This document shows positions 1 to 27,125 of a stretch of DNA of 27,397 nucleotides, piece after piece (positions within the stretch are counted from its first letter, which is position 1; each line of letters begins with the position of its first letter). The DNA comes from Saccoglossus kowalevskii (Eukaryota > Hemichordata > Enteropneusta > Harrimaniidae), in NCBI RefSeq assembly GCF_000003605.2, contig NW_003154748.1, forward strand, positions 24,186-51,582, read 5' to 3'. The translations under genes were made by a program, and so were the position numbers. The notes under the pieces are model-generated. The model did not search any database and had not been told where the DNA came from. It worked only from the letters and a program-made list of their open reading frames with translations.

Positions 1-343
1 AAATTTTCTGGGTGTGTACTGGGTTACATTGTATATAGAGCAGCACAGTACAGCATTGCATCCAAAGCTTCATGCATGAGTTTGACTTACCGTGAACATG
101 ACTATCTTTTTTATATTTGAGGAAGTCCTTTCTATGTTTCTTGGTGAAATAATAGTTGCAAAGTGTTATTTACCGAGTTCTGTTTCATAAAGTATGGAGT
201 TCACAAGATTCCTTTGTATAAAATAGTGCTTAGAGTTTGGAGTTTCTGGAATGAAATAATTTTAGTAAAAGAAAATACAGCAACATTACAAAATGACATC
301 AAAAAATTCAAAAAAATGTATTAATTTATTTTCTCTATCACAG
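1..343. other. Non-coding stretch, probable intron upstream of the receptor exons
   Basis: I see no exon that I can support here. A short open stretch runs from the left edge to about 117 in frame 1, but it has no convincing donor and no resemblance I recognise. Because the first clear receptor exon opens after an acceptor at 342-343, this is most likely an intron, with earlier exons to the left of the window. Confidence 0.4.
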
Positions 344-5285: not shown

Positions 5286-8200
5286 TTAATAGAACACAGA
5301 TATAGTCATGGCGTCTGCAAATGTAGTATCTGAAAAATACAATGGGAACAAATAAAACCGTTATCTGTATCTGCACATTCACCATTTCAAGTAACACAAA
5401 AATCCACATTTTCTTAGTGATGTTTTACCTGTCATGCTGTTCCAATTCGAAGCCGTGTCTCTTGTACTATACAGAATAGTTGGTCTATTGACTGTCCGGT
5501 TTTCCCAATCACAAATATCTAATACATTTTCTATTATCACAAACCAGCCTGAATCATGTTGACAGTTTGTTGTGTTCTGGAAAGCTGAAAATCCATGGTC
5601 ACGTCTAGCAATAGAACACGCAATGTCAATGTTCCATTTATGTTCACCTTGAACAATGTCTTATTCACATGGCAACTCTAATTCACATGACAGTTCTAAT
5701 TATTCTCCATATATTTAAAATAGCACACTTCTATGCATGATGGAAATGGGGATCAAAACTATACCATATGGGGATGTGAATAACCAACCCATTCAATATA
5801 TATGATTAAAAGCTGTAATATTAATGGTGTGAATGTTAAGGGGGTTGGTCATTATTCAAATTAAAGAAAGGTTAAAAAAAAGAGGAAATTCTAGGGATAT
5901 ATATGGAAATATTACAGAGATTATACATATTGCGATATTAGTTTTAACATACATTTAATATTGCAGCAAAATTACATTAACTACTCTATACATCATCACC
6001 TGCACCGTAATAACCACGTTTTAATGCACCGTAACAATAACCACGTTTTAATGTACCGTAACAATAACCACGTTTTAATGCACCGTAACAATAACCACGT
6101 TTTAATGCACCGTAACAATAACCACGTTTTAATGCACCGTAACAATAACCACGTTTTAATGTACCGTAACAATAACCACGTTTTAATGCACCGTAACAAT
6201 AACCACGTTTTAATGCACCATAACAATAACCACGTTTTAATGCACCGTAACAATAAACACGTTTTAATGCACCGTAACAATAACCACGTTTTAATGCGAA
6301 CAAAAATACTTTTCCAATACTTCTTCACTAATTACTAAATGACAACGTTTTAAAGCATTGATACTGTCAATCACGAATGAATTTTACTTGACTCTGTAGA
6401 AGTGATTTATGTTATTGCTACCTGAGACCACGTACCACACCATAGCACAATGCATGATAGGATCTGCAACACCTTTACTTTGATTTGAAATCTATCGTGA
6501 TTGTCAGCTGTCCATATGTGTCAATGCAGGCAGGGTGAGATACGTAAATGAAGAAGAGTTTGATTTCTATTTAAATTTCACTTGCATTGTGATTTTGAAT
6601 TTGATTGAATTTTGATTTTCATTTGCATTTTTTAGTTCTGAATCGCATTGACCTTGAATTGTTATTTGACAATTTTACAATTCGTTTACCTCTGGTTGCG
6701 GGTGTGATACTTGAACAATAATGAACGAACGAACAGCCAACCCATAATAGACACGCATAAGCTGGTATTGATAATACATAGCAAGTCAATAGCTAGCAGT
6801 CGGTGAATTTTATGACTTCGCGAATACTTTGTCACCAACTGACCGTTGATGAATATAACAAGATGCCATGCTATATTCCAATATTCCAACTTTCTGAACA
6901 ATGGCTGCAGTTAAGGGGCGGTGGTCGTTGCGTTGCGCATGTGCAACATTTGTGTTGATAAATGTTGATTTCCCGCAATCCAATACGCTCTTCTAATGGA
7001 AATCACAAGTATGACGTTTGACCTGGGCGCGACTTGTACTAATTACCACCAGTGACTCATTCGATACCTTCTAACCAGCTAAAATAACTAGTTAAAGTTT
7101 GGTAACGTCTCAGTTTGTATACAAAATCTGTGTTACCAATCTTTGTTTATATGAGACCCTTATATCTCGCGCATGCGTGGCGCGCCGACTATCGCCCTTT
7201 AAGATGCGCTGCATTTACTGCTAGTAGCCACCGAGACAAAAGTGTGATCACTCCATTATTTTGACGTTGAAATACATTTATACGGTTATGGTAGACCCAT
7301 GGACTCGCGAAATATTACGAAGACATCCAGGTTAGAGTATGTTGTACGCTGTTTTCACCACTACTCTATGTCTATCCAGTCCATTGGCGGATCTGGCATA
7401 CGCCTACTCGCCGACCTACCTACGCCTACTCGCCGACCTACCTACGCCTACTCGCCGACCTAAACTTGGTAAGTATTCTCCAGACTTTCAGTGGCGTGAC
7501 AAATATTTCAATCCTAGTTGTTATTTAGTTGCCAACACCCGAATTGCCAATGCTGCTAAGGAGGAGGGGATGATGTAGCCAGTACGACGAGTCTGACACC
7601 CATCACTTATTAGTCGTCCGTTCACTGAAAAGTTAAACGGCGATAATCGTCGCGCCGTGTGCTGTTCGATATGGAACTCATATCGACGTACACAGCGCAT
7701 GTAAAATACATGAAATTCGAACACTCGCTACGCGACGACCACCGCCCTTTGAACGCCGTAAAATTAAAATTATTGTCGTATGAATGTATCGAATCTAGTT
7801 TGTGATCTGTGATTGAAATTACATTATTGAAATAAATAACGTAACTTTATTACACAACTTAACGTTCTTGGGAACAGTAAGGTAACTATAGCAATCAAAT
7901 GTAAAAACATAAACTCAAAAAGTGAAATGAAGGAATACAGATAAGTAGTAAAATCTGTCAGTTCATTCTGACATTTTCTCTCAATGTTTTGTTAAAGGTA
8001 ATGACATTGGTAATCCTGCTTTAAAATGTCTGACACATAATTTAAGTCTCACAAGTGCACTTTAGTATATGGGTTGGCGGTTTGTCTATTATTGCTGAAG
8101 TATTACGTCCGCATGAAAACACGAATATAAATGAAAGTAAGTGCCAACAACTCAAAATTCAAACTCGCTTACCCGTGACGATCTCCGACATTCATAACAA

Positions 8201-11200
8201 CTGATGAGTTTTGTTGCAAATCAAGCCATGTAGAAGTAATTATTCGTTCAGAAGTATACCAACTATTCTTGCTGCTACCATTAGCATCAAATACAATAGA
8301 GGAAACTTGATCGTTATTTTTGAACAAGGAGAGTTTCACCTATTAATGCAACATGTAATACGAATGCTAATACACATTTTTAAATATCGTAACATTTTAT
8401 TTTTCCACAATCTACCACTCTCACATATTGTTATCTGTCGGACGATTTTTTGTATTATCGTTTCTTTCAACTTGTACTTGGTGAAATAGAATAACATCCC
8501 ACCCCTACACATATATACACGTTGCAGATTACCATATACTTCCTAACCGTTCCAATGAATTACGTTTGCTGATTGTTTCCGATGACATACTGGTGAGTTC
8601 GATTAATTTGTTTATTTGAATACTACTTACATATTGAATATTCAGCGAATCCCACTCCTGTACGCGGACGCTCTTATAATTTCCTGTCCCATTTATAGAT
8701 TTATCAGATGTACTACCCGTGGAGTCCGTACTTAACCATAGTTTATGTAGATTCACACCACTCTCAGAAACACCCCTAAATAGAATGTCCCATTCTATAT
8801 ATATATCGCGAAAAAAAGTAAGAATTTACATTTTTGTTGAGATATGAATTCGGTGACACAAACAATAAATCATCATATCAGAATGAATGTAACATATATT
8901 TGCAACATTTGTGGAAAAAAAACTAGTTATTGTATATTAATAAATGAATACACTTTTACAATGAGTCGCCCCTTGTCGGCACCATGGCGTAAAAAATGTC
9001 GTTCAAATGGAGAAATCTGTATGTCTGTTTAGTTGTTCTCATTTCTCTTTATCATGCTGTAAATAGCGTCAACTATATCCATTTACGTTGCTAGAGGGCG
9101 TTAGTTGGTAATGAATGGTAGAGCATGTACCTGTTATGTCTGCGTATACCTGTACTTCACATAGAGACATTACTGTCTCAGTTTCACTAAATTTCTGAAC
9201 ACCAACATAACGTCCGAGCATTCGTTGACAGTCGAATAAGTATGTGATATTAAATACGTCAATGGTTTCGCCACACTGTCTATTTTCTTTAATTGTGGTT
9301 GACAATCCAATATGTAATTCACTATCTAGTATACGATTATCTGCAATGATAAAATGGGAAGTGTTAAACACGCACTATATATATATGACTGTATTATGAC
9401 AAACTATTTACCACATATTTTCCTAGGAAATATGACTTGCAGAAACAAAAACTGATATTATAAGTATTAGTCGTCTTAAGTTCCATGCAAGATAATTTCA
9501 CATTTTAAATGTCCGATGCTCGTCCATATCATAAATGAACAACCAACTGAACATATGAATACTTACTTATCTTATTGGCACTGTGCATTCTATTTGTAAT
9601 GTTTACCCATTTAATAATATAAACATCTTGTAAGTCTACCATCCACCATGGATTAACAGTTTTATTCGTATGAGTGCATGATGTATTTGGGTAATTAAAC
9701 CATTGATAGGTATTTCCGTCAATTGCATTCTTGGCATATCCATTCCATCTCCAAGCTGTATTAATCTGATGAGCTGTTTTACCTTCGGCAACTTCATTGT
9801 ATTCTATCACTGTAAATGTTGGAAATTATTATTAAGTTTATTGCGAAACATAACGGTGGGGTTAAATGCAATGGTCTATTTCATCAACAATAAGATATGA
9901 ACTCGTAGTTCACTACAGGTAAAGCTACCTATCAGGCATGACTTGATTCCTAGCTATGGTGTGTTTGCTACTAACACTCGTACAATAACGCAAGGTAAGT
10001 TACGATGACATGCCATAACCTAACACTAGTGTTTTATGAAAGACCATGTACCTACGGGAGATACATATCATCTGTCGCAACATAAATCATATTATTATAC
10101 ATCCGTCATCGTAAAGCCATAAGTTACAGCGTGCCGTAATTTTGCGGTATTTCACGGGGTATTTTAATCCTACCATTTTAGGAAATGCGAATTCCAAATA
10201 TGGAATGATTACGCGCGTAAGCGTCCTCTAATAAAAACAAACATGACTGCCACCAGAGTTTGACCGGACTCAACAAAATGAAGTTTGCTGATTCTGTTCT
10301 AAACTTTTTTGAATTTCGGCATTCCCATGGTGTATCCTTGGTAGGAAAAGATGTATAATAATAAGGTTATTACGAGAATGCATCAAAGTATGCACTCAGA
10401 CAGTACGCCGCGCATAATCAGCTGTACTGTCTTCGTGCATAATTTGAGGTATTATATTATTGCCATTCTGTCTATGAGTTACTCACTGTTATTTGACTTA
10501 CCTATATCGCAATTCAAACCACGGGTACCCTCGGGACAGTTACATATGTATAATAGGTAATCATTGGGAACAGAACACGACTCTATATGGGCATCAGAAC
10601 AGTGTCCTCCATTCAAACATGGTCCACTTGAACAACCTCTTTGATACAAATTAGCCTGTAGAGTATAACACAACGGAACAATCCCTTTAACATTGACAAG
10701 ATAATAAAATAAAAACCTAAACTTAAAGGAACAATCTCTTGGTAGTGGCTAGTTAAAAGCAATTGATAGGAACTCAACATAAAAGAAGAACCAACTTGAT
10801 AGTAGTTAATTGATAGACGTTGATAGAAACTAACTTATGGAAACAATATACTTGATAGTGGTTATTAGAAATTCATAGAAATTATTACCAGTTAAAATGT
10901 TTCTGCAGGAATATGAGCTACATTGATAATGCTGTATTGTCTCCTAATTGTTTTTGAAAAAGCCATTTCTGGTAATACATTTTACCTGTCAAAATTCTGA
11001 AAGTTAGGCGTATCATGGTCCCTAATATTCGCGGTGAGGTATCAGGTGTGTATGTAATAAGGTGTCTTAGTCCACGCCAAAAATAAAAAAAAAACATGAT
11101 CAAAACAATAAGTTACAAACTGACTTGCGCCCTAACAATGCAGAGAAATAATTCTCAAACAAAAACCATACAAAAAAATATAAAAGCATCATTCTTGAAC

Positions 11201-14043
11201 TTTGAACTGAGATGTGATGGTTATGTCAAAGGCATAATATTAGACGTTCACGCTCAAAGCCAAGTATATTGAAACAGTATGACATAACTCTCATGTAAAT
11301 ATCATTATTGCAATATAATAATTGCAAGAAAAATATTGTACACATATTGTCATTTTCAATTAAAATGTATTTTGTATGTAAAGCAATGGACATCTTGTGT
11401 TGTAGCATCTTTAATAATTGGGCTAATCACAAATGGTTGCTTAGTCTATGGTGTACGGAATACTGACTGTAACATAAAAATATTCGTTGTGAACATACCT
11501 CATTATAATCGCTTTTAATATCTAAATAGATATAATCGCTATCGTTGTACAGTTGTATATTTTGGTTGACAGTCACACTTTCGTCATTTAACTCACATAC
11601 GCCTTGTGTTAAATGGTAATTTACAGAAATGCATCTTGGTAAATTGGAACAAGCAAGTCCACAACTCAGTATCGTTCCAAGTCTCCGTCTTTGAAACACA
11701 TGTCCAGAAAGGTAGTGACCATCGCTTTCATACTGTGTGTATGGGGATTCCACCTTTCTCTCTGCTGATGTAGGATATGAAGACATTATGTTTTATAAAA
11801 TATTTGTTGTTAAAAAAGAAACAAAACGACACATAACCTAACATAACTGAATCGCTTTTATTGGCAGCAACCGTGTCAATAAGACAACTATTATAATAAC
11901 CAATCACATAGGGCTGACAATTTATACAATCTCCCGTCCAAGAAAAAGAAGCTTGCTAAAACAACGTACAAAATAGGGTTAATTTTGTGCACTGTGCAAA
12001 TGATATAGACATACGGGATAGGCCATGTTGTGATCTCAATCATTAGTTAAAATACTAAATATGCCCATTTTTGTGATGTATACCATAGTGCAGTCATTGA
12101 TGATTGGTGCCGCTTGGCTTTACTTGTTTCGTTGGTACAGATTCATGTCAATGAAATAAAACAATTAATAAAGATATGATCCCAAAATTATCCCACACAA
12201 TCAGAAGGTCACGTCCTAATTTCAAGAACATGGAACACGAGTCTTCGTGATGGGTGATATATATATATAATATCAGGTATATATTAAAAAAATGGAAAAT
12301 ATATATTCAAAAAAATGGAAAAGTATGTGATCTAACTAACAATGAAAAAATCACTGTTGGAAAATTATGTGAACGACAACAATAAATGTAGTAATATTGG
12401 ATGCTGTATGGAATTGGGCATATTAGCATTTTTATCAATTGTGTATTACAGAGTAATAAAATAACAACATATTATTAAAAGAGGTTAAAAAATGTAAGCA
12501 ACTTATTATTGAAATTAAACTGGCACCATATTTAGAAAATCAACTAAACTTTATGATATTAAAGTAATTAAGCCTTGGTTGTCGCAAACTATAAAGTGAA
12601 ACATGAAGACATGACTGCCACTGCTCGGTCAAAGGCTACGCAAAACGTGTAGAATACTTGAAGATGTAAACCATTTTATTATTTGTGTGTTGCTGAACTT
12701 TAAAACTGTATTAATTGTATTTGTGAATTTGTATTTATTGATTAATTATTTGTGATTTTGTGGTTTTCATTCCATTTCAACAGGCATCCTTTCTATCAAC
12801 TACCTTGTCACAAAAGTAGGCAGTCAAAATGGTATTGGTGACACGTTTATAATCAATTTAGACTTAAGGTAGAGATGCAGGTGCGTGGACACTTGGCTAT
12901 AGACTGTTACAATTTTGTAAAATTGTGAATAGTGGAAGATACTCAAAAAACGATTTTAAAATATAGATAACAGGTGCAAACATTCTCTCTTTTGAATGCT
13001 TAGCAAGATTTAGCAAGACCGTACATAAATAATAAAAAAAGAAACATGGTGAAAAAAGAAACGATGGGATCTCCATATTTGCACTATATTTAACATTTAA
13101 CAAAAAGATAATAGGTTTAAATTTGGAACTGTTACAGCCATTTTAATTATGAGCATTAGCAAACTTCTTACTAGGTGAATTGTTATGCAAATTAGCATAT
13201 ATCTCAGCTTCCTTTTAGTGCACATCCCAGAACTTTAAAACAAAAAATAGCTCCTAGATGATTTGACTTTTTGTTTTGAAATGTTCACAAATGATTGACA
13301 ATGTGTTTATCTTCAAAACGCCGTTGGGGCATTGTTGTTGGTTGAACAGTGTTACAACAATCGTACAGACAACTAGCCTGGGTGTAAATTTATGCATAAA
13401 CTTGAAGTAGTAAAATTTGAGCTGCTGCCCTGCAAAATTGACAACTGGTAGACAGTTTTCAAGACGGCACTTTCTTCATAGTAAACAGATGTACCCATAA
13501 ACCAATTTTGACAGGAAACAGAAGCATGGTTTAGAAGCTATTTTTTTTTAAATCACTTTTGACCGAAAAAGCACATAAAAAAATACTAACAAAATTTTAA
13601 AATTCATACAATAAGCTTCCCGAAAATATATAGTTTTGTGGACAAGGTAGGTCATCTTGGTTTCCTAATTAACTAATAAAAATACCTGTCAGGTAAACTG
13701 CATCTCTACCTTAATTGTTTTGTCTTCTCATTTGCTAATTAACATACCCTTTTGATCAACTGGCCAATACGTATATGAGTAACATATTGGTTGGATGTAG
13801 TGAGGCGTGATGCGAGTCATTCTGCCGAGACAGTTTTCATCTAGCCTATGTCTCTATATTAAACGTTTTGACTAACTAAAGTCATATAGTGTGGTTATTT
13901 TCGCGTGAAAGTCCATGCATGTGAGATCTATGTACAAGTCAATACAGTTAAAAAAACAAATATATACATGTAATTGAGATCTACTCACCTGTTGCAATAG
14001 ACACAATAACGACAAGCGTTTGAAAGAAAAACCACAGCGACAT
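5286..14043 (-). CDS. Gene A: secreted PAN-EGF-F-type lectin protein, 492 aa, 9 exons
   Basis: Exons 5'->3' on the minus strand: 14043-13989, 11764-11499, 10655-10502, 9809-9567, 9340-9131, 8794-8631, 8339-8173, 5604-5429, 5329-5286. Lengths total 1479 bases and the frame is continuous. Residues 1-18 are a signal peptide (MSLWFFFQTLVVIVSIAT). About 28-100 are PAN/apple-like, with SCGLAC, PRC and GVCELND. About 113-157 are EGF-like (GCSSGPCLNGGHC...CNC...GLNC). About 159-309 are an F-type lectin domain with AIDGN, NPWWMVDL, CGE, GRYV and LCEVQVY. About 310-492 are a C-terminal module (LFRG, NYKS, W, C..GW, C.WE, LYS, NWNS, ADAMTISVF). It is likely a secreted glycan-binding protein: N-glycosylation sequons NKT, NIT and NGT are visible. 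The fucose-site Asp is His here (RMH) and the CC pair is missing, so sugar binding is doubtful. The 5' UTR is unplaced; ATG 14043 was chosen because it starts the signal peptide and matches gene B. Reading past 5429 instead would give a stop at 5379-5381. Confidence 0.78.
6003..6296. repeat. 27-bp minisatellite in gene A intron 7
   Basis: Ten copies of a 27-bp unit (CACCGTAACAATAACCACG plus TTTTAATG) run from 6027 to 6296, preceded by one 24-bp copy (6003-6026) that lacks an ACA triplet. Copies differ by single bases, for example TACCG at 6054 and 6162, CACCAT at 6216 and AAACAC at 6243. Because 27 is a multiple of three with no stop in some frames, three long artefact ORFs arise here on both strands. 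I do not regard them as genes. Confidence 0.95.
6911..7202 (-). mobile_element. Kolobok-like MITE, 292 bp
   Basis: TTAA borders at 6911-6914 and 7199-7202 enclose inverted ends: left GGGGCGGTGGTCGTTGCG, right (reverse complement) AGGGCGATAGTCGGCGCG. The inner text near the right end (GAGATATAAGGGTCTCAT on the minus strand) resembles the GATATGGGACTCAT of the copies at 7633 and 16642, so this is a longer family member in the opposite orientation. TTAA target duplication plus RRG-like termini suggests the Kolobok group. No coding sequence. Confidence 0.55.
7400..7465. repeat. 22-bp tandem repeat, three copies
   Basis: ACGCCTACTCGCCGACCTAC plus CT is repeated at 7400-7421 and 7422-7443, with a third copy at 7444-7465 that diverges at the last bases. 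It lies in gene A intron 7 between two MITEs and is more GC-rich than its surroundings. Confidence 0.85.
7633..7753 (+). mobile_element. Kolobok-like MITE, about 121 bp
   Basis: Starts TTAA at 7633 and ends CCCTTTGAA, a mutated TTTAA, at 7753. The ends are inverted relative to each other (left CGGCGATAATCGTCGCG; right reverse complement AGGGCGGTGGTCGTCGCG). The interior (CTGTTCGATATGGAACTCAT, GTAAAATACAT, GAAATTCGAACAC) matches the copy at 16642-16774 closely. Its right end also pairs well with the left end at 6911, so 6911-7753 may be a composite. Confidence 0.6.
12864..13714. mobile_element. 851-bp TTAA-flanked element with inverted termini
   Basis: TTAAGGTAGAGATGCAG at 12864-12880 is the exact reverse complement of CTGCATCTCTACCTTAA at 13698-13714. 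This reads as TTAA target duplications around a 13-bp perfect terminal inverted repeat GGTAGAGATGCAG. The interior has no long ORF, so it would be a non-autonomous DNA transposon of a TTAA-targeting group (piggyBac- or Kolobok-like). It sits in intron 1 of gene A and has no counterpart in intron 1 of gene B. Confidence 0.65.
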
Positions 14044-14531
14044 TGTGTCCACTAGCATGGACGTTTTCCAGTGAACAAAACTAATCAGTGCATTCAGTTT
14101 CCTATTAAATGTTCAATCAATCTGATTGTCTCCTTGTTCGGAAATTACGATTGTTCAAGGCAGGATATTGAAAAAATAATAAACCAACAAACTATGCATA
14201 TTTTAGGTATAACTACACATAAGTTGTAATATTGTGTTTCTTATAAGATATTATATGTTACTGAAAAAACGAGAACATATTTAAAACATATTTAAAATTT
14301 ACCTCAAATGTATCAAAAATGTAGTTTTTGTTAAAAATAGTTGGATGTTTATACAAGTGTATCAATATACTAGTCAAAATGCAAATTAGCATATATATTT
14401 CTAATGAACGTTTTTACATTCACAATAGACCACTGATTATTTAGAGTTTTCAGAGTATATCTACTACTGAATTTATTTTTCTTTAATGCATAACTTAATG
14501 TGAAATATAAATAACAGCATGTAAACAGCCG

Positions 14532-14921
14532 TCAAAAGAAATATACATTTTCCACATAAAAAAAAACCTCTGAAGCAGTTCTATCACAACATTTGTCAAA
14601 GGCTCTATCACAACATTTGTCAAAGGCTCTATCACAACATTTGTCAAAGGCTCTATCACAATATTTGTCAAAACCTTTTTCTATAGTCCTTGTTGAAAAT
14701 TGAATATATTCTTTATAAATAGGGCAATTGATGCTAGATAATAATACACTACATACTGAACAAATAACTTTCAAAATTCCTTCTTTTGTAATAACCAGTG
14801 TGTTCATTTCTGTCAAAAACAGTGATACAATGATTACTGGAACCCACGTTACATAACTAAAAGATGTTTGGAAAAGAGTTGACCACATACTGTTCAACAT
14901 GTGGCACTCACCACATATCAT
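14532..14921 (-). CDS. Doubtful 129-codon ORF with octapeptide repeats
   Basis: A 129-codon open frame starts at ATG 14921. It has two hydrophobic stretches (about residues 20-40 and 51-62) and, near the end, four copies of an 8-residue unit FDKCCDRA (first copy FDKYCDRA) encoded by a 24-bp tandem repeat. It lies in a block inserted between gene A's coding start and its probable distal upstream region. I recognise no family and see no neighbouring exons that join it. It may be chance or a fragment of a repeat. Confidence 0.15.
   Translation of the reverse strand: MICGECHMLNSMWSTLFQTSFSYVTWVPVIIVSLFLTEMNTLVITKEGILKVICSVCSVLLSSINCPIYKEYIQFSTRTIEKGFDKYCDRAFDKCCDRAFDKCCDRAFDKCCDRTASEVFFYVENVYFF
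14580..14675. repeat. 24-bp tandem repeat, four copies
   Basis: TCTATCACAACATTTGTCAA plus AGGC repeats at 14580, 14604, 14628 and 14652, with the last copy diverged (CAATATTTG, AAACC). A 24-base period keeps any reading frame through it. Confidence 0.9.
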
Positions 14922-14989
14922 TCATAATGAAATGTTATCTGTAAGGAGTCCAAGGTTTGCATAAGATAATTGACATTAGTTAAATTCAC

Positions 14990-15060
14990 GACTGTGACTC
15001 AGACAGATGTATGGTGGAGCAGGATGTGCTCACTCTTTTCGAAACACCTGACATCACCTC
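14990..15060 (+). repeat. Dispersed repeat tail, copy 1
   Basis: TGGAGCAGGATGTGCTCACT and the following TTTTCGAAACACCTGACATC match the stretch at 19174-19216 at most positions. I recall a very similar motif followed by T-rich text in bivalve repeats thought to be retroelement-derived; that link is recall, not a search. The T-rich sequence to about 15270 may belong to the same element. Confidence 0.5.
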
Positions 15061-15636
15061 TTGGCTTGTGCCTTGAGGTCCATGTATCTCTCTCACTGAT
15101 TTGACAGTGTGTTGTTTTTTTGTTTTTTTGTGTTCCCTGTGTGTTCTCGGATTTGTAAATATTGCCTTTTAACATTGGTTGTTTGGATTATAGTTGGGTA
15201 TTGTTGCTTGGATTTTCCATATAGAATAATTTATGTTCGAGTGTTAATTGTAGCCGTTCCCTACTTTTTTATCATATAGTGTGGTAGAAAGCTGGCCCTT
15301 ATAGTCAAATTTCACCACAAGGATCTAATGTCAAGACATATTGTGGACTGTAAACGGAAGTATGGTATGAACTGGTGATCTTTATTCGGATTGTGACATC
15401 GGGAAGACGAGTCTATAGACGGAGCATAAAGTTGTCCCTGGGCGTTGGCCAAACGACCAAGTCTAGAGATCATACAAGTGAACTCAGTAATATGTATCTG
15501 TGTGTATTTCTAAGTCTGTCTGAAGTAATATGTCTTTTTATGAGGTAAATCACGGGATCAAAATTGATTCATCAATGACTCAAAATACCTTTTACGATAG
15601 GACAGTGGTTCAATACACAGCATAATCACGTTTCCC
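15061..15636. other. Spacer upstream of gene A, nothing firm
   Basis: A T-rich section to about 15270 may continue the dispersed repeat. The remainder (to 15636) holds no exon or recognisable motif that I can support. Confidence 0.35.
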
Positions 15637-15696
15637 GAAAATACATTAAATAAAAATACATTGAATAAAAATACATTGAATGAAAATACATTGAAT
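15637..15696. repeat. 15-bp tandem repeat, four copies
   Basis: The unit RAAAATACATTGAAT occurs four times head to tail with one variant (ATTAAAT in the first copy). It lies in the block that separates gene A's coding start from the upstream region shared with gene B. Confidence 0.85.
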
Positions 15697-16061
15697 AAAA
15701 TGTGTAGCATCTCCACATTGTGGTGAAATGTTCATTTTCCAGGCATTGTAACTATCGAGATTTGACTTTCAAATACGGAAGAACAACTGTAGAAATTGTT
15801 TTGCGCATGCAGCAATCCAAACGCAGCGTCTTCTAAATCCTACTTATCGTAATCTGCTGTAATCCGCGAAGTTGAATCGCAAACAGTGAAGCTAAGTCGA
15901 TATATCCTGAGATATGTTATTTATCATATTTTGATTCAGAAAATAAAAAAAAATTATTAAAATAAAAAATTAAAATTAGTCACGAACTCGTTTCATGCAT
16001 CATGTTCCTCTAGATGTCATTTATTGTGCGATATAGTGGTCGGCAACTGAGATAAACTAAA

Positions 16062-16400
16062 ACTAATTCAATATATGGTCGTCCTATATCTCAGGTGATT
16101 ATTTTGTCAATTAATATCCGGAGTATTTTTGGGAAATTGGCCACGTTCATGTCGTCCAATAAGATTGAGCGATTACATGCATTTAATCTCGTGTACATAA
16201 GCAAGTAATGGAAGTTGATTGGAAAGAATACACCCTCTCTGTTTCACTTGTATAGCAGACAAAAACTCATTTCATTTATCAAATACAATTTTTTTTGTGA
16301 ATCTTCATCTATCTGGCAATACAAATGGAAAATTTCCAATATTTTTTTTTCAGTGTAATCGTAATGTGTTCTGCAGTCAATACTTCATTTACTGATTCGA
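16062..16400 (-). promoter_or_regulatory. Upstream region of gene A shared with gene B (putative promoter)
   Basis: Blocks here match the region just upstream of gene B in the same order: CTATATCTCAGGTGATTATT, GAAATTGGCCACGTTCATG (gene B: GAAATTGACCACTTTCATG), GGCAATACAAAT and TGTAATCGTAATGTGTTCTG followed by CAGTCAAT. Gene B's copy starts about 250 bases from its ATG; this one starts about 2 kb away. Retention after duplication suggests promoter or 5' UTR exon function, but the duplicated segment may simply extend this far. Confidence 0.4.
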
Positions 16401-16641
16401 CTATGTTGTGTTATGAAATTATCGGTCATTTTTATGTGTTCAACAATATATGGTTGTGTATGTTATTTCTACTTTTCTACTGGTGCAGACATCTTTCTAT
16501 TTTGCACGATTCCATAATTGTTAAAACAGTAATTTGGGTATTCACAATATGAGCGCTTAAATTTGGAACTTAACTTGGGTTGAAACACGGGGTGCTTGGC
16601 TTTTAACTCCCAAACTGCAATTACAATTGCCTACGCCTTTG
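16401..16641. other. Intergenic between genes A and B, nothing recognised
   Basis: A 75-codon open frame covering 16325-16552 is rich in Phe, Tyr and Cys and overlaps the conserved upstream block. It has no family resemblance or splice partner, and I leave it uncalled. Confidence 0.3.
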
Positions 16642-16774
16642 TTAAAGGGCGGCAGTCGTCGTGCCGCGTCCTGTTCGATATGGGACTCATAACGAGGTAT
16701 ACAATGCGTGTAAAATACATTGTTTATTTACATGAAATTCGAACACGCGCTGCGCGACGACCACCGCGCTTTAA
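16642..16774 (+). mobile_element. Kolobok-like MITE, 133 bp
   Basis: Exact TTAA at both borders (16642-16645 and 16771-16774). Inverted ends are AGGGCGGCAGTCGTCGTG on the left and, reverse-complemented on the right, AGCGCGGTGGTCGTCGCG. The interior has CTGTTCGATATGGGACTCAT, GTAAAATACAT and GAAATTCGAACACGCGC, shared with the copy at 7633-7753. The AGG/AGC termini with TTAA duplication fit a Kolobok-like MITE. This is the cleanest copy in the window. Confidence 0.7.
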
Positions 16775-17841
16775 ATATCTAAGCGTATGTTATATGTTAT
16801 CCACCAATATTAGTCTGCAAGATATGGACGAATAACATAGGTCTCGACTCTTAAATGTGAATAGCCTTCCAAATGCTAAACATAGTATTGTTTACCATTT
16901 GGTAGGATATACGCCCATGATATAATTGCTGATTCATTGCTTAAAAACATCATAGAGAAGCAACATATACGTGATTCTTTATCAATAAATAATTCCCATT
17001 ATAGTAAATTGTTCATTTTTCTTTTATTTAACTTGACTACACATATACAATAATACACATACACACTCTTACTGTGTTCCGACAACTACACTGTCAACTA
17101 TTTTACTATGTAAGAATTAAATTATACTAAATAACCATAATCATAACCAAGATAGAGTATAACGTATATATTTTAATCACCTTCTCCGAACAACTATTAT
17201 CAGGTTATTATGTTGAAATAGCCCTGGCTACTATAATCAAGGCTAACATGACAGCAATTGACAGTATCTAAGGATGTATCTAAAACTACTGACATTCTCA
17301 CATAGACTATGTCAGCCGATGTTACATGTAGCCATGTAATAAACAAATATATTAATGCTCAGTTTATTAAGTTATGGCGTGCCATAGTAAGCATTCCACG
17401 AAATTTAATCTGCATCAACACAGACGAACCATGCAACATTGTCAAATTACGGTTTTACAATTCACACCGGGTAATAAACCAAGTACACATTAATGGGTTA
17501 ATGTCACACAGCAAAGGCAAATACAGCAACAATGTTAAATGCTAAATAACAAGTTTATATAGAGAAACTAATATGATCACAATGGCTTGGGTTTCAAGAA
17601 CAAATAACTATCAATAACCTAGACAGCTTTGAACATTTAATTAACTGTCATATAGCGCATACACGGGCCACACTGCCTTGTAAGTACAACTAATTACTTT
17701 ATCTCATAACTAACTAAAGACATCAGTAACAGAAAATTGCTTAATTAGACACATTCGTATCGTATATTATTAGTCAAATATTATGTAACATTAATTGCTA
17801 TTCATGAGCCAATCGTGCATATTCTTTATTGTTCATGACAG
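16775..17841. other. Intergenic between genes A and B, nothing firm
   Basis: AT-rich spacer past the 3' end of gene B. No exon or RNA gene is supported. An AATAAA on the minus strand occurs at 17830-17825, only 12 bases past the gene B stop, and another near 17367-17362; which one serves gene B is unclear. Confidence 0.35.
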
Positions 17842-20800
17842 TTACAATTTGTGATAAAACACAGATATAACCATTGTATCAGCTTCTTTTCTGTCTGAAA
17901 GAAAATAAACACTATTGTTATTTCGGTGACATTTATGTATAATTACTATTCAATTTATTCGAAACGTTCTATAAAAGTAGGGTCAAATGGTATGTTTCAC
18001 CGTTTAAGACAAAGAAGGTTAAAAATAATTACGTATTTGTGAGAAGATAGACGTTCAGTCAATGTAATAACACAGTTGTCAACCCAGTATTGATGTGTTG
18101 TTATTATATGATGTATATTATTTACTTATGCTTGATATCGTACATAAATTGTCGCAAACCTTGCTTTGAATTCCAGTTGATGGACGTCTCTGTTCCACTA
18201 TATAAAATAGCTGGTCTATCAATGACTGATATTTCCCAAGGACATTTAAATGTATAGTCATCTAGTACAACAATCCATCCACGTTCAGTGGCGCAGTCAT
18301 CGGGATCTTCATGAATTGAAAAACTGTGGTTTCTGCTTGGGCTAGTGAATTAATAAAATGTTATAACACATGCATGAACTGATATTTGCTGTGTTTTTGT
18401 GATTGTGCTTAAAACACGATTCATAAATATTTGTACTATTTCGATTCAAAACATTTTTTAAAATTTCGATACTATGTACCATAACTTATTGACCTTTGAT
18501 ATTTTTACAAACCTTTTCAATTACATGCAATTGAAATCAATGGACAGAATATATCTGAACCCAAATGAAAACCACCATGTGAATAAAAAATATATAAAAG
18601 ACTCGTACCAATCAATTGTTGCGGACGCATTTTTCATTAGATCATGCCACGATGAAGCAAGTATTCGATTAGAATTAAACCAGTTATTTGCGTTGCTATT
18701 AACGCCATCAAATAATACTGTAGCCACCTCGGTGTAATTCTTGAAAAGTGCCAATTTTACCTGAAGTTAGAGTGTAATGTGTCTGTTATATGTAAATGCA
18801 AGCACACAAAAATCAATGACCAACGTCATATGACATTGTGACTGATGTATCTTGCACGCATATTTCGTACATTCTACATGTCAGTTTAGATATGTGCATT
18901 GAATTAGATTCTAATGGCTACCTTTTTACCATAATGTGAAATCTTCACTATCTTCAATTGTTCACGCTTTTACAGCATTGTCTCAGATTCTCCTACCTAA
19001 ATCATATATTTCTCTAATAATTCATTATTCCTGGACCTGTAGTACATAACCAGACTTTTCTCAAAAAAGTATTCTTTCATCGAAACTATTATACGAAGGG
19101 TTTTATAGAAAGAACGGCTAGCCTTAACAATCAACAAGTATGTAGGCACATGTGATTAGCACTGGTGCCACATGTGGAGCAAGATATGCTCATTCTTTTC
19201 AAAACACCGTCCATCACAACCCACATATTATTATTTACAGAGAAATTTTATTGTTTGCGTCAAACTGGGAACATTTATTTTTAATATAAATATACTTCAA
19301 CCCTATTTAAAACGAATTCTCACCAAGGTAATGTCATCTACAAGTTTTATAAATCAGTTATATGAACTCCACGGTCATCTTTCAAATTGTTGAAGTTAAG
19401 GTTAAGGCTTAATTAGGTGTCATTGCTAGAAGATTCCGCATATATCATCGCACTACAAATACTTACATAGTTAATATCAAGGTGTTCCCACTCCGTGGTC
19501 ATATTGCTCTTGTATTGTGTGCTCGTGTCGGCATTATTGCCAACTTCTTCTGTTCCCATCCATAACTGACTAAATGACGTAGTAGTATCATTGTTGCTTA
19601 CACCTCGAAAAAGCATCTCCCATTCTGAAATTATTATCACAGTTGTTACAAATAAATAATAATCTACTATCTACTAATCCAATACTATCATTAAAAATGC
19701 TATGAAAATATTAGGAGTTACGTAATATAATTTTTTTCTTTTTTTTAAAAACAAATGTAGCAACAAATGTGAAACAGAAATTGTCTATGATGCCATGGCC
19801 ATCTACTCATGTTCTTATGGCAAAATACATTTTCTTATTACTCTATGTTTAAAGGTTAAAGGTCAACTAAATAGGTGTATTGAAAAGAAATCATTCTACT
19901 TAAGTTATGTAATTTAGTTTACGTTTTAAAATTTTGAGTTACAGTAATTGAACGGTATTTCTATAACAATTGCATTGGGTTGAATCGGGTGATTGTATAT
20001 GACATCAAAAGAAAAGTTCTTGAGAGACTGCTCCAAAATGAACATTTCCCAATTTTGCTCGGCGTGCACTAAGAGCCACACAGTAACATAGAGGTATCTA
20101 CGTACATTGGACCTCGTTCTCTGTATACACATGAATGAAATCGAAAATTGCAAACTCCCGAAGTAAGTTTTATTTTAAATTTGTTCATAATTTCAATTTG
20201 TCTTTGCATTTCCGGTTTCTCAAGACGATTCGTGGGCTCAAATCAAAACAGTCACATGCATGAAATGTTCAGCTTGTTATTCACTTTGCCCTGCTCCGAA
20301 ATATTAATAACCATCATCACAGTGTTGATGCCAGTTAAAATATGCTAGTATTGATAATGGCTGACCAAATGTATCAAAATACTGACTGAAGTACTGACTT
20401 TAAATGTATCATACTATATAAATAGTTATACTAATGGCGGAAGTATGTTGTTATATGAGGGTAATAATCAGATTAATATGTCAAGCCCTTTTCATATTTT
20501 TCATATTTGCAATAAAGTGTTGCTTTAATATTATCGTGATATTTCAGTACATAGTTTACTAACCATAGTTCGTTTCGTCCCACAGTAATATATGAGTGTC
20601 TTTGAATCATAGTATTTTTGTTGTATGTATGCGGAATGTTGTTGACCCATGCATGTTGTATACTACGAAAGGATTGTTAAGGTAGTAGTAATCGGAAACA
20701 ACAGAAATGCATATACCGGCATATCACCAATAATTATTATATCGGGCGTGTTTCAATCCATTTTATTATTATTTTGTTTGTTAACAGAGACGTGTATAAA

Positions 20801-23800
20801 CTCCACATGTAATACGTAGAGTATGTCTCGTAAGCGACGTTTCAATATCAAACTTGTAAAATGTTGAATAAACTGTTTTATAAACAATTTTCGAATTTAA
20901 AACGTCACTATCACAACACAACACAACACAACACAACACAGAAAAGGTAGGTCAAGCGATTTTTCTTTTAAGTAGGCCTAATTATAGGAGAGAATTGGCT
21001 TGCCTGTATCATCTGCGTATACCTGAAGCTCACAAAAACACAACGTTTCGTAGACTATTCTTTGTACACTAACATAACGCCCAATCATAAACTGACAATC
21101 AAGTATAACATTGGTTAAAACTTCAGATACTCGTTCACCACACATTGTGTTCTTCTGAAAATTGTTTGATAATCCAACTCTTACTTCGTTGTCAAGGATA
21201 CGTTCTGCTGTGAATAAATAAAACACAATATATGTAAATATTTGATAATGTGTAGTTCATATAATCATGTTTTGTTTATTAGATTTTGGGGTTTCAAAGA
21301 AAATCATGTAATTATTCAATATTACTAAACTGACTGACTTAGATGTTCTATAATTCAATTAAAGATTTCCCAAATGATTTTTGATCAAAGTGCACCATTG
21401 TAAGACTTTATATACAATAAATGTCATGTTTCTGAATCTGGTAGATGTTTTTGAAATGGCTTAGGATCAATTAGGATGAGAATCAAGTCAACACCTTTTG
21501 CAAATTGTTTGCTTTGTTCTAGAACTGTTATGCATATCACGTTATATCGGTAATAAATTCGTGCAGAATCACTGAATGCCTATAAAAGTATGAGACTTTT
21601 GTAGATGGTTCGGGTCAGATAAACCCGCCTAATCCTTTATCTTGTACATAAATCAGCAAAATGGCATGTCCACTCAAGTATTCTGCCTCAAAGGTAACAA
21701 CTATATGAGGCCGGCTAGAATTGCTCACAGTGTAATTACGTTCTTTTTGTCGTTCATAATTTTTAACTAATTAACAACTTCTCGTCGAATGAGCATATCG
21801 AATATAATTGCAGCATCTCTAAAACATAAAATGCATCATATATATGTAGGTACAATTTGTTGTATGTAAAACTTACGACAACAATCGATTCTGTTTGTTA
21901 TATTGATCCATCTCACGATGTAGCTGACTTGTAAATCCACCATCCACCAAGGGTGGTTATAAATTTTGGTATGCATACATGATTTATTTGGATAAAAGTT
22001 GGGATCTGTATTTCCATCCACTGCTTTGTCAGGGGTTCCACCATGCTGTATGCTAACTGATGTAGCTACCTTACCTTTAGCCACTTCAACGTAAGGAATT
22101 ACTACATGGAATAATAATTACACATGTTTGAATATATGAACATCGATTTTAAATTATTCACACCAACATCAGATGACTTATTGTGGACATTTTGTTTGAC
22201 TAAAACAATTGAATACATGAATTGTGTAAAATATCTCCTATGGCATTAGCCCTTTCTCTGTATTGTAATATTCTAAGAAAAGGGCCAGTATTTGAGAAAT
22301 AGACAAACAAACTGAATAGAGACATCCCATAATACCGTGTTTTCGATTTGTTTATTTAGTTCATGTTCTTACATTTGTATATGAAATTTGCACCTCAGTG
22401 TTCGTAATCCTTCACTAATTGTAGAGTTCATAATTCATTATAGCCAATTAAAAAAATGAGATATACACTTTTGATAATATCATTTTTGATTTACTTTCTA
22501 CTGTATACTTGATGAAGATGGGGATCGCATGGCGTCGCCTTCGTATCTACTCGTTTTGAATTTAATAATCCATTTGGTGATTTGCTTAATTATAATTTCT
22601 GTATATTATTTAAACGGTGCGGCCATATCCCGCACGTCGACAGTAGTACAGCTAAAACAACACATTTCTTTTACATTTAGAATTTTAATTCTACTATTAG
22701 TGAGTTGTTTTAGTTAAAAGTACACACGAAAATTGCTGCTTAGAGATACATTTTTATTGGTTTTACACTAAAATTCTAATAACGCACGAAACACCATGAA
22801 TCCTTGGGCGAAACTGGAGCTCAAAAGTAATTTCATTTCGTATACATATTTTGAATCCAGCGAATGTTCGTTGCCCAGGTAATTTGCGCCCGTTCATTGT
22901 CCGTGAGTAAATTAGCATAATAATGTTTAGCAGTCTATAGACTATATCTTAATCCATCATGTAATACAGTTTAAATAGTGACATTCATGTTTGATTTACA
23001 AAAATTGAAGTGCTTCTGGCTCAATACATTCGTACTTCCCCTCTATGCGCCATAATAAAACATACAATCTTAATTCACTAAATTATTGTGCGTTATTGTT
23101 GGTAATGATCACATTCGACCCTATTGTAAGTAGCACTGTTCGCTTATCTTCGCTATCCCTCAATCTATAAATACAGTAGTTTTGGTCCTAGACACTGATC
23201 TCAGTGAATATATCTTGTACATTTAAAAAGTATAATATCCTTAGCGGAAAGCAATATATCCACCCAATTAACTAGACTTTCAATTACAACAATGGTGAAC
23301 ATTTTACTGAAAAAGCCTCTATTATAATTGGTCATATTACCCGTATCCCCTTGGTAGTAAGATAGAATAATATTTTTACCAGTTCCTAGCTTTCATTGCT
23401 CTGAGAATCTCAGCTTCTATAATAGGACAGTTTAGGGGGTATACCACAGTGTATTTGTGATCTCACTGAATATGGTATATTGGAATACTGCATGATATAA
23501 CGTAAGACTATAATATATTGAGCATACATGGCAGATATTAACAACTGTTGCAACACCACTTATTAACATCATGTATATAAATTGCATTATCGGCGCAACA
23601 GCAGTGTAATATCTACGTAATTGAACACAACATGATCGCGCTCATATCTGGTGACGCATTTTTTAAATATGTCTTTATATTAAGACTTTTATGTCTCGCA
23701 AGCTGATATGAGTGCGATCTGCAGTCACGGTATAATGAAATATACCAGTCTGAAAGGTCAGCTACTGACCCTTGTAACTCACAACTCACATTTATCGCAG

Positions 23801-26610
23801 TTCAAACCACGGAATCCTTCGGAACAGTTACATGTGTATAACAAGTAATCACTAGGAACAGAACACGAATCTATATTTGAACAGTGTCCTCCATTCAAAC
23901 ATGGCCCACTGGAACAACCTTTTTGATAGTGATTAACCTATGGGAAATATAGCGTAGTACGTCAATATATAATTAGATAATACATTACAAACAAGCGAAA
24001 CTAGATACTATTAATTTTTGTGGACTCGACGCGAGTTTTGCGACCCGAGGTAGTACAATTGATTCCATCCAATCGCGTTTAAGATAATTCAACCATTCAT
24101 AACGCCCTAAATGATAGTAACTCCATGGATGTAAACACTTTGTCAGCACTCATATTTCGATGAAGTAACTCGACGTTCTTCCTTCCTACGTAAAATAACG
24201 GCCGTTGAATTGATATTACTTTTAAAAGTGAATGAATGTCATATGTAAGGTGTATGAAATCACTTTTTAAGTAAACGCCAGTTATTTATTCGAAATACAG
24301 ATACAATATAAATGTAGAATGTAATCTTGTAACCACTTATAAACTTGTCTTTTGTAAATAATTTTGAAATATTGACATATCTGTAAATGTTTTGAAGTGA
24401 TAATAATATGCAGTGCACTCTGATTGCTTCAACAGACTGTGTATGTGTACAAGATAAAACACACCTTATTGTAGTCGTCTTCAATCTCTAAATAGACATA
24501 TTCGCCATAGTCCAGTTGTATATTTTTATCCAAAGTCACACTTTGATCATTTAACTCACATACGCCTTGTGTTAAATGGTAATTTGCAGAAATACATCTT
24601 GGTAAACTGGAACAAGCAAGACCACAACTCAGTATCGTACCAAACTTCTGTTTTTGAAACACATGCCCAGAAAGGTAGTGGCCATTGATGTGATACTGTA
24701 TGTATGGCGATTCCACTTTCCTCTGTGCTGAGTATGTATTAAAATAGAATATAAATATATCGGATGGAAATCGTCAGCAAAAGTAATCCCCTTTTCCTGT
24801 GCCCAATCGATTAGGCGTATATCGATGCCTTAAATATATCATGCAAAAATATTTCCAGCGTAATGATTAGTGTTGTTTAACCAGACATATGGTCATTTTT
24901 TATGTTGATTTGAGCTTACAATAACAATTTACAAAATATCTCATTGTAGAGATATCAAAAGAAATTGTTCTCGACAGTTATATTACTTATATACAGTTAT
25001 ATTACTTATATAAGTTTTACAGATTATTCCAGATGCATGACTTGTATTTGTCTGGTTTAAATATATTATGGGTGGTAAATATGGAGAGGGATAAGATGCT
25101 CATGCATTTTGACAATACAGATTTATCATACAGTGACATTAACTGATATACATATTCAACTGCCAATATAATATTGGCAAGGATACCAGTACAAACAGAA
25201 CTTGTCAAGAAAGAATATGGCATCAAAGACCCAAACTCTGATTAATGGAGACTCTATATTGAGTCATTGTTACCCAGACAAAATAATCGCCGATTTTGGG
25301 AAGTGTCCAGAGATGTCAATGCAGAATGTATACATCATTATATGGCTGCAGACAAACAGACAGACAGACATACACTTGTATGATAGAGTTCGCCTCAATA
25401 GTTTTGGAACAGCCATATTAGCCAAAAACTATTAAAGATAAAATAGGACTAAAATATGAACCATATTACTTCATCTTATCACTCCCACAGGTACTGGGGT
25501 ACTCCACAGGGCCAAAGGTCAGTTAAATACAATTCAAAATGAATAAAAACAGAAAGAAAGGAATTAAACCAGAGGAAAACGGCCCTTTCTATTTCATATT
25601 TGAACATACAGGGATAGGTAAAAGATAAAACACAGGACCAAAATGTTATTGATTATCGGACCATGATATATATAGATTTGGATATCAAAATAAAAACATA
25701 AATATTGCAAATTACTGGTTGTTCGTAAAGCAAAACAAAAAGGCGGTGGGGTAACCATTCTCAATTAAAAGTGGAATTCAAACTATGAATACTGGAAATG
25801 AAGACAAGATTTGGTTCCAATTAGGAAAAAGGTTTCTCAATTTATCAAATTCAAACAAATCAGATACTTTCTTTGAGCAACTGGAAACATTTTAAAGTGA
25901 AATAGATTCAATGGGTTGTGGGAGATATAACTGCAAGGACTGGATGGTAGTAAAAGACATGTTCTATGATATGTTCCAAGACATTACGCAATTGACACTA
26001 AACTAAATCGTTGTAGCATGGACAAAAATGACAATAAGTATGGTCAACTTTTAATTGATCCGTGTAAGCTTAGCAGGATGCGAATTCTAAATGGCAGAAT
26101 ATGCGGTGATATATAAGCTAACTACATGGCATGACAGAGTTAACTTAGCTACAAGAAATTTAATCAAATTATTAGAATTACTAGCAACAGGTATATTAAA
26201 TAAAATAAAATATGCGCAAAACGAAAAAAAGAAAAAAAATCTAAAATGGTTTGATAAACAATGCGATTTGTGTAAACGTGATTTTATGACTTCAACAAAG
26301 TTAGTAAATAGATATCCTTTTGATATGCAACTTAGCCGAATGTTTTATTCAAAATTATAGGGAACAGCCAAGCAAATACAACATGTTTACATGTATAATT
26401 CAATACAGTGTATGAAAATGTACATGAATTGATTGATTGTCATGTAAATAAAAATTTATATAAATTGTATAGATGAGTATTTTTAAAAGCACACAATAAG
26501 TTGTTGTTATCGTTAACTGACATTAAATGTACATATATATTTGAGATTTACTCACCTGTTGCAATCGACGCTGTAATAGCAAGCGATATAAAAAGGCAAT
26601 ACATCATCAT
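17842..26610 (-). CDS. Gene B: secreted PAN-EGF-F-type lectin protein, 477 aa, 9 exons
   Basis: Exons 5'->3' on the minus strand: 26610-26556, 24727-24465, 23937-23790, 22101-21877, 21207-21004, 19624-19467, 18760-18609, 18335-18160, 17894-17842. They total 1434 bases in one continuous frame, with the same intron phases as gene A. Residues 1-18 are a signal peptide (MMMYCLFISLAITASIAT). About 27-99 are PAN/apple-like. About 112-154 are EGF-like (GCSSGPCLNGGHC...CNCSEGF RGLNC). About 156-298 are an F-type lectin domain with AVDGN, HPWWMVDL, NRIDCCPERIL, CGE, GRYV and LCFCELQVY. About 299-477 are the C-terminal module (LFRG, QYKS, WF, C..RGW, C.WE, LYS, NWNS, EADTMVISVF). The motif HX26RXDX4R is intact, so fucose binding is predicted. 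Exon 5 uses a GC donor, and the exon 8 donor (CAAG|GTTTGC) is weak; reading on would stop at 18122-18124. A TTCTTTTCTATTCAG acceptor just before the ATG suggests a 5' UTR intron. Confidence 0.8.
19174..19216 (+). repeat. Dispersed repeat tail, copy 2
   Basis: TGGAGCAAGATATGCTCATT and TTTTCAAAACACCGTCCATC match the sequence at 15015-15056 with scattered differences. It lies inside gene B intron 6. Only about 45 bases are shared, so this copy is a short remnant. Confidence 0.5.
20911..20940. repeat. ACAAC pentanucleotide microsatellite
   Basis: About five and a half units of ACAAC in a row, in gene B intron 5. Confidence 0.9.
21002..21003 (-). other. GC splice donor of gene B intron 5
   Basis: Exon 5 ends ACAG and the intron starts GCAAGC. 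The homologous junction in gene A is ACAG|GTACAT. The next exon (from 19624) opens AATGGGA in both genes and needs a phase-1 join, which this site provides. No GT donor near here keeps the frame. AG|GCAAG is the usual form of rare GC-AG introns. Confidence 0.7.
23633..23718. repeat. Imperfect 15-bp inverted repeat
   Basis: GATCGCGCTCATATC at 23633-23647 pairs with GATATGAGTGCGATC at 23704-23718 with one mismatch, leaving a loop of about 56 bases. It lies in gene B intron 3. It could be the core of a small foldback element; nothing else supports a role. Confidence 0.5.
24974..25011. repeat. 19-bp direct duplication
   Basis: ACAGTTATATTACTTATAT occurs twice in perfect tandem, in gene B intron 1. 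Confidence 0.9.
25740..26360 (+). pseudogene. LINE endonuclease and linker relic in gene B intron 1
   Basis: Plus-strand pieces follow the order of an APE-type LINE endonuclease, broken by stops and frameshifts. GGGVTIL is at about 25743; EDKIWFQL and SDTFFEQLE lie at about 25800-25890; VGDITARTG (normally GDFNARTG) is at about 25919. RCSMDKNDNKYGQLL, then PCKLSRMRILNGRICGDI, lie at about 26010-26110 (normally R.S.D..N..G..L...C....L.I.NGR.GD). KKNLKWFDKQCDLCKRDF, typical of the linker before the reverse transcriptase, lies near 26235-26295. The segment that should hold the final SDH catalytic motif is missing, so there is an internal deletion. It is inactive and lies opposite in strand to gene B. 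Confidence 0.7.
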
Positions 26611-26861: not shown

Positions 26862-27125
26862 TGTTCATATCCGTGTTATATCAATTACACAGAGTATGCT
26901 AGGAAATTGACCACTTTCATGATAGAGTAACTATGTAAATAAATAAATAGTGCATACAAAATGCAGTAATGTAAATGGTCTCTGTTTTACTATATGAGTA
27001 GATGACGACAATGTTTTGGTATCCACGCCAGGTGAATCGTGTGTGACAATACAAATCGGGCATTACCAAAATTGTTTATTTTAATGTAATCGCAATTTGT
27101 TTTGCAGTCAATGCCTGGTGGCGCT
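26862..27125 (-). promoter_or_regulatory. Upstream region of gene B shared with gene A (putative promoter)
   Basis: Contains GAAATTGACCACTTTCATG, GACAATACAAAT and TGTAATCGCAATTTGTTTTG followed by CAGTCAAT, in the same order as at 16062-16400 upstream of gene A. It begins about 250 bases from the gene B start codon. No clear TATA box can be assigned. The sequence could be promoter, 5' UTR exon or simply the edge of the duplicated block. Confidence 0.4.

Follow-up and report, generated by a model that had tools for sequence, protein, structure and literature searches.

Tandem F-type lectin-domain genes with an unusual PAN-EGF-lectin order and a recurrent C-terminal module

Among proteins of known structure that carry F-type lectin domains (FTLDs), the closest to the genes described here are two fucolectins, the agglutinin of Anguilla anguilla (1K12) and FBP32 of Morone saxatilis (3CQO), whose chains consist of one or two FTLDs. 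Other arrangements are reported for invertebrates. According to the available portion of PMC5712786, a Nematostella protein combines an FTLD with CCP and EGF-like domains, oyster sperm bindin is a secreted protein with one to five FTLD repeats, and acorn worms and amphioxus have an expanded number and organisation of FTLDs; that portion mentions neither a PAN domain nor a module such as ours for the Nematostella protein, and neither PAN-EGF nor the module for bindin. The two genes that we analysed, A and B, have the FTLD in common with 1K12 and 3CQO by sequence but differ from both in placing a single FTLD between a PAN-EGF part and a C-terminal module. A shares with these lectins the complete fucose motif as well as the DGN cation motif, whereas B lacks part of the sugar site. 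Like the Nematostella protein, compared by description only, A and B join an FTLD to an EGF-like domain in an invertebrate, and like bindin they are proposed to be secreted.

The window (the whole stretch of DNA analysed, 27,397 nucleotides, G000:C4416:24186-51582) lies on a contig of 74,407 bases in a 572-Mb assembly of 4830 contigs, which was the genome searched throughout. When one part of the window was compared with the other by tblastx, nine coding blocks paired in collinear order on the minus strand, and exon borders were set by the splice sites read at each block. The resulting models, both on the minus strand, have nine exons each and an open frame to a stop codon: gene A occupies 26610-17842 and encodes 479 aa, and gene B occupies 14043-5286 and encodes 492 aa. 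Their features, in window positions, are as follows.

26556-26610, minus strand: gene A exon 1, start codon and hydrophobic signal-peptide-like segment (tblastx; signal peptide by eye)
24465-24727, minus strand: gene A exon 2, PAN domain (PAN_1 29.7 bits, cut-off 21.4)
23790-23937, minus strand: gene A exon 3, EGF-like, seven Cys (EGF 26.8 bits as exon, 18.4 in whole protein)
21877-22101, minus strand: gene A exon 4, first half of FTLD with cation motif and H-X26-R-x-D-C-C (profile, PDB alignment)
21004-21207, minus strand: gene A exon 5, second half of FTLD
19467-19624, minus strand: gene A exon 6, C-terminal module part 1 (module HMM)
18609-18760, minus strand: gene A exon 7, C-terminal module part 2 (module HMM)
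18160-18341, minus strand: gene A exon 8, C-terminal module part 3 (module HMM)
17842-17894, minus strand: gene A exon 9, module end and stop codon (tblastx)
13989-14043, minus strand: gene B exon 1, start codon and hydrophobic signal-peptide-like segment (tblastx; signal peptide by eye)
11499-11764, minus strand: gene B exon 2, PAN domain (PAN_1 33.8 bits, cut-off 21.4)
10502-10655, minus strand: gene B exon 3, EGF-like, seven Cys (EGF 21.6 bits as exon, unlisted in whole protein)
9567-9809, minus strand: gene B exon 4, first half of FTLD; cation motif and His present, D-C-C lost
9131-9340, minus strand: gene B exon 5, second half of FTLD
8631-8794, minus strand: gene B exon 6, C-terminal module part 1 (module HMM)
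8173-8339, minus strand: gene B exon 7, C-terminal module part 2 (module HMM)
5429-5604, minus strand: gene B exon 8, C-terminal module part 3 (module HMM)
5286-5329, minus strand: gene B exon 9, module end and stop codon (tblastx)

A preliminary description of this DNA had proposed a tandem pair of nine-exon genes with equal exon order and intron phases. The pair was rebuilt from sequence on the minus strand with stop codons at the ends, and the recomputed phases were the same in A and B (1,0,1,1,1,0,2,1); the length given for B (492 aa) agreed with ours, and that given for A (477 aa) became 479 aa. Fifteen of the 16 introns are GT-AG, the exception being the GC-AG intron 5 of A (GC start at 21002-21003), whose counterpart in B starts with GT. 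Of 474 aligned residues in the two proteins, 254 are identical, and for the complete coding sequence NG86 and LWL85 put dN/dS at 0.32 and 0.48, respectively; with the collinear exons, these values indicate that A and B match more than by chance. A poly-A-type hexamer (AATAAA or ATTAAA) starts 12 nt past the stop codon in A and 62 nt past it in B. Judged from sequence, A and B are real genes of a known lectin family with an unusual, putatively shuffled architecture. Named RNA or tRNA genes were looked for in the window, and none was found.

Both proteins start with a hydrophobic segment that by eye resembles a signal peptide. In whole-protein Pfam scans, PAN_1 matched A at 26.1 bits and B at 30.7 bits (cut-off, 21.4), and the four core PAN cysteines lie at positions 53, 57, 63 and 75 in each. 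The EGF exon scanned alone passed its Pfam cut-off of 21.5 bits in both genes (26.8 for A and 21.6 for B); in the whole-protein scan, A scored 18.4 bits, below that cut-off, and B was unlisted. This exon encodes seven cysteines in both genes, compared with six in the EGF profile. The order previously described, namely PAN, EGF-like domain, FTLD and C-terminal module, was upheld, with PAN and FTLD passing Pfam cut-offs in both proteins, and so was the secreted, lectin-like design, which is predicted from the signal peptide seen by eye and from the FTLD profile.

The FTLD was recognised by F5_F8_type_C_2 (PF22633; cut-off, 27.8) at 60.4 bits in A and 46.0 bits in B, and by F5_F8_type_C (PF00754; cut-off, 28.2) at 33.5 bits in A, above the cut-off, and 20.9 bits in B, below it. 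In the PDB, the closest solved relatives of both domains are fucolectins: FBP32 (9.2e-34 for A and 1.8e-32 for B) and eel agglutinin (1e-18 and 1.4e-15, respectively). The fucose motif is given as HX24RXDX4(R/K) in the available text of PMC5712786 and as HX(26)RXDX(4)R/K in that of PMC5297725; the former gives the cation motif of the FTLD as h2DGx. Gene A carries the full fucose motif, with H199 followed by 26 residues and then R-I-D-C-C-P-E-R, and its alignment with the eel lectin is ungapped across H-X26-R-x-D-C-C-x-x-R with equal spacing. In gene B the motif is incomplete: the His and the first Arg are kept and are followed by M-H-S-A-N-K-I (RMHSANKI), so that the D, the C-C and the last basic position (R/K) of the sugar site are gone. 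The DGN cation motif is present in both, as AVDGN in A and AIDGN in B. Among the best 19 of 75 FTLD match rows outside the window, all of them first-half exons, R-x-D-C-C occurs in 19/19 and the His in 9/19; the loss in B therefore stands out in that sample, in which loss of the His is common. Membership in a family of fucose binders, previously proposed for both genes, is supported for A by its full motif and does not extend to B, in which D-C-C and the last R/K are lost. The product of A probably binds fucose and that of B probably does not; by its sequence, B is an FTLD protein that we do not class as a fucose lectin. Since it has neither D-C-C nor the last basic residue, B probably binds another ligand or none.

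Exons 6 to 9 encode a C-terminal module of ~180 aa that has no Pfam match above cut-off. No Pfam match was found for the module of A at E values up to 10 or for that of B at E values up to 5 (whole-protein scan), and no NCBIfam match was found for A. A genome search with the module of B recovered A, B and sequences on contigs C343 (5.4e-4) and C166 (0.12); reading of these loci revealed one module copy at C343 (placed in L052 and L054, G000:C343) and two at C166 (placed in L055 and L056, G000:C166). A search with the C343 copy gave at least seven matches at E values up to 1, and among the matches listed only C343, C166 and C4416 were represented. An HMM was then built from the C343, C166a and C166b copies only, with approximate joins and with A and B excluded. 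It matched A at 5.7e-21 and B at 5.5e-23, compared with 0.075 for the best of 2000 shuffled modules. Pfam at E values up to 10 returned nothing for the C343 copy or for C166a; C166b matched DUF2004 at 0.032, which is below the cut-off. By eye, the C343 copy and the first C166 copy have the same internal phases as A and B, 0 between parts 1 and 2 and 2 after part 2. About 8 kb 3' of the C343 copy, and on its strand, lies a VWD match of 29.1 bits; the C166 copies have TSP1 matches of 36.2, 46.3 and 23.8 bits beside them. The conserved C-terminal module noted earlier is therefore present in both genes, as claimed, and extends beyond them to related copies in other genes (C343 and C166). As a putatively extracellular module of ~180 aa without a Pfam family, it could be defined as a domain; this module and the uneven divergence of the two protein ends, described below, are the parts most worth follow-up.

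Phase-1 introns at module borders are an established hallmark of exon shuffling. In both A and B, the borders between signal peptide and PAN, between EGF and FTLD, and between FTLD and module coincide with introns 1, 3 and 5, all of phase 1, and from these borders and that general knowledge of phase-1 modules we infer that the genes were assembled from cassettes by exon shuffling. Shuffling of phase-1 cassettes accounts for the matching phases to which the preliminary description had drawn attention. The two FTLD halves also match separately elsewhere, for example at C2403, where query segments 159-235 and ~231-297 alternate.

The genome search yielded 52 PAN matches. Eight of these are preceded, within 6 kb and on their own strand, by an FTLD or F5/8 match; two have an FTLD 3' only and are the window's own two; and among the matches entered, 42 have no FTLD or F5/8 within 6 kb. 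Seven of the eight have two FTLD matches each (C2851, C3245, C309, two at C3786, C6 and C3226), and at the eighth, C4178, the 5' match comes from Pfam F5/8 rows and one such match also lies 3'. The 8/52 with an upstream FTLD or F5/8 match indicate that FTLD and PAN are paired repeatedly in this genome, with the FTLD first. The FTLD-FTLD-PAN places, which are known from matches and not from gene models, resemble A and B in that FTLD and PAN exons share a strand and lie no more than 6 kb apart but differ in that PAN follows the FTLDs; they are probably a small gene family. The single PAN read among them, that of C2851, is weakly like the window's, with 9/26 aligned residues identical. A PAN-EGF gene at C1344 (L039, G000:C1344:114500-124400, minus strand; PAN at 5105-4857 and EGF at ~4459-4320) is closer at its own end: 28/76 aligned PAN residues are identical to the window's, the phases are 1-0-1 by eye, and an extra EGF cysteine lies between the third and fourth, in a like place to that in A and B. 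It differs from A and B in that tblastn with both, over the 9.9 kb read, gave no convincing match to an FTLD or to the module. A Sushi-like exon lies downstream of this PAN-EGF pair (15.8 bits, below the cut-off of 20.7). In the genome-wide search, EGF and module matches were found at C4416 only, among the 89/177 candidates scored.

The claim of an unusual domain order consequently holds in a narrower form: among the PAN and FTLD matches of this genome, PAN followed by FTLD, with no FTLD before it, was seen in this pair only, and the pairing of FTLD and PAN as such recurs in reverse. No description of a PAN-EGF-FTLD architecture was found among the best-ranked literature matches, outside which lay the main survey of FTLD architectures (Bishnoi 2015). 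We consider the order unusual, and new within this genome's PAN and FTLD matches, and make no wider claim of novelty. The individual parts belong to known or recurring types; what is unusual is how they are ordered. The pair adds to the F-type lectins a new arrangement of three phase-1-bordered cassettes, each with relatives elsewhere in the same genome.

The two ends of the proteins have diverged unevenly. Identity between A and B is 73% in the PAN exon, 80% in the EGF exon and 37-64% in the other exons. At conserved residues (Met and Trp excluded), exons 2-3 use the same codon in both genes at 84/103 positions, as against 67/130 for exons 4-9, a significant difference (Fisher P = 2e-6); saturation would give ~42%. 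When only fourfold sites are counted, the corresponding values are 28/38 and 24/46, which do not differ significantly (P = 0.07). NG86 dS is 0.31 for PAN, 0.45 for EGF, 3.3 for FTLD and 2.2 for the module, the last two being saturated, and the LWL85 values are 0.19, 0.31, 1.19 and 1.20, respectively. By the identical-codon test, protein constraint alone does not explain the shared synonymous codons. A single gene-conversion tract over exons 2-3 was rejected, as intron 2 of A cannot be aligned with that of B (local score of 14, shuffled mean of 14.6). In alignments of the A and B introns, no pair scored above all of its own shuffles, intron 1 tying with its best shuffle; a 61-bp match of 79% runs from the end of exon 1 into intron 1, of which it takes in ~31 nt. 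Exon-confined gene conversion or selection on synonymous sites would each fit this comparison of two sequences. A bolder scheme, which we think quite unlikely, is a constant/variable system in which the PAN-EGF end is homogenised by exon-confined conversion as the lectin and module diverge, so that a common docking partner would present two heads, fucose-type (A) and other (B), with the module an old extracellular domain that has no name yet. Should the PAN-EGF exons prove to be homogenised, the pair would serve as a small and testable example of recognition ends that diverge while the docking end stays shared.

With reasonable though far from full confidence, we propose from the sequence that the duplicated gene encodes a secreted multidomain recognition protein, exon-shuffled from PAN-EGF, FTLD and C-terminal module cassettes. 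The gene would have been assembled from these three phase-1-bounded units, and the protein would leave the cell by way of its putative signal peptide. The FTLD of A may grip a fucosylated glycan by His199, Arg226 and Arg233, next to the cation site, while the PAN-EGF part and the C-terminal module may dock the protein to partner proteins or matrix; the seventh EGF cysteine may join chains. B keeps the scaffold but has lost part of the sugar site, and so would probably bind a different ligand or no ligand at all. We consider innate immunity, or recognition in mucus and extracellular matrix, the most likely setting; the immune reading follows family precedent, the locus itself holding no pointer to immunity.

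Other roles have to be weighed against a recognition protein. Acorn worms secrete abundant mucus, PAN and EGF domains are frequent in matrix proteins, and VWD and TSP1 matches lie near other copies of the module, all of which would suit glycan-binding structural or adhesive parts of mucus or extracellular matrix in place of microbe sensors. By eye, however, A and B lack the repeats and low-complexity linkers of structural mucus proteins, and each chain has one small FTLD, and we regard such a role as unlikely. The FTLD and module diverge far more between A and B than PAN-EGF does, as might be expected of fast-diverging lectin ends with species- or individual-specific binding in gamete recognition, and oyster sperm bindins are themselves FTLD proteins in the available text of PMC5712786; with dN/dS above 1 seen in no part of the A-B comparison and an architecture unlike that of bindin, this role seems very unlikely. 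The very different rates of the two halves could also mean that the PAN-EGF exons are transcribed apart from the FTLD-module exons, making four genes and not two. This we consider highly improbable, because strand, order, spacing class and splice phases are alike in both copies, and the end of the EGF exon and the start of the FTLD exon are both of phase 1 in A and in B. We thus continue to favour a shuffled recognition protein encoded by two genes.

The preliminary description had assumed a mollusc, an assumption that the hemichordate-like mitochondrial code of the assembly does not support. A genome search found a single COX1 match, on contig C4830. ND1 on this contig scored highest against Pfam, at 361.4 bits, when ATA was read as Ile and AAA as Lys (355.3 with ATA=Met and 340.9 with AAA=Asn), and COX2 likewise favoured ATA=Ile (198.8 versus 196.1; membrane part, 91.5 versus 83.3). 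One of the two AGA codons of ND1 sits where Ser is usual. In the available text of PMC2697986, ATA=Ile is common to echinoderms and hemichordates, and AAA encodes Lys in Saccoglossus and Asn in echinoderms; the code found here therefore indicates a hemichordate rather than a mollusc. The FTLD expansion reported for acorn worms (PMC5712786, available portion) fits a hemichordate. On C4830 (L065), COX1 (1333-2919, minus) lies on the strand opposite 186-1232 (plus) and 3301-3996 (plus), i.e., ND1 and COX2. According to the same portion of PMC2697986, hemichordate mitochondrial gene order is very similar to that of vertebrates, so the strand of COX1 counts against a hemichordate; the order would be unusual for that group if the contig is correctly assembled.

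A third copy of the gene, which a longer cluster of the kind previously suggested would contain, was sought by tblastn of A and B against the flanks (L040-L043), and nothing convincing was found; L040 and L042 are all N, 7320/9918 positions of L041 are N, and contig positions 1-4185 and 71501-74407 lay outside the search. As the flanks are largely N, this empty result is no evidence that a third copy is absent. Further out, L043 contains frames that by eye resemble short-chain dehydrogenases. Within the window, a 27-bp tandem repeat (10.7 copies, 96% matches) occupies 6009-6297 in intron 7 of gene B, and a 157-bp tandem repeat (3.9 copies, 91% matches) occupies 2734-3347, 3' of gene B. Two non-exonic DNA matches were also seen, between 27044-27112 and 16314-16381 (80% over 69 bp) and between 19174-19217 and 15014-15057 (84% over 44 bp). 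By eye, ARRPPPF-like translations at window positions ~7096-7846 and 16560-16835 and at 5802-5948 of L054 resemble one another, and these stretches are perhaps one dispersed repeat.
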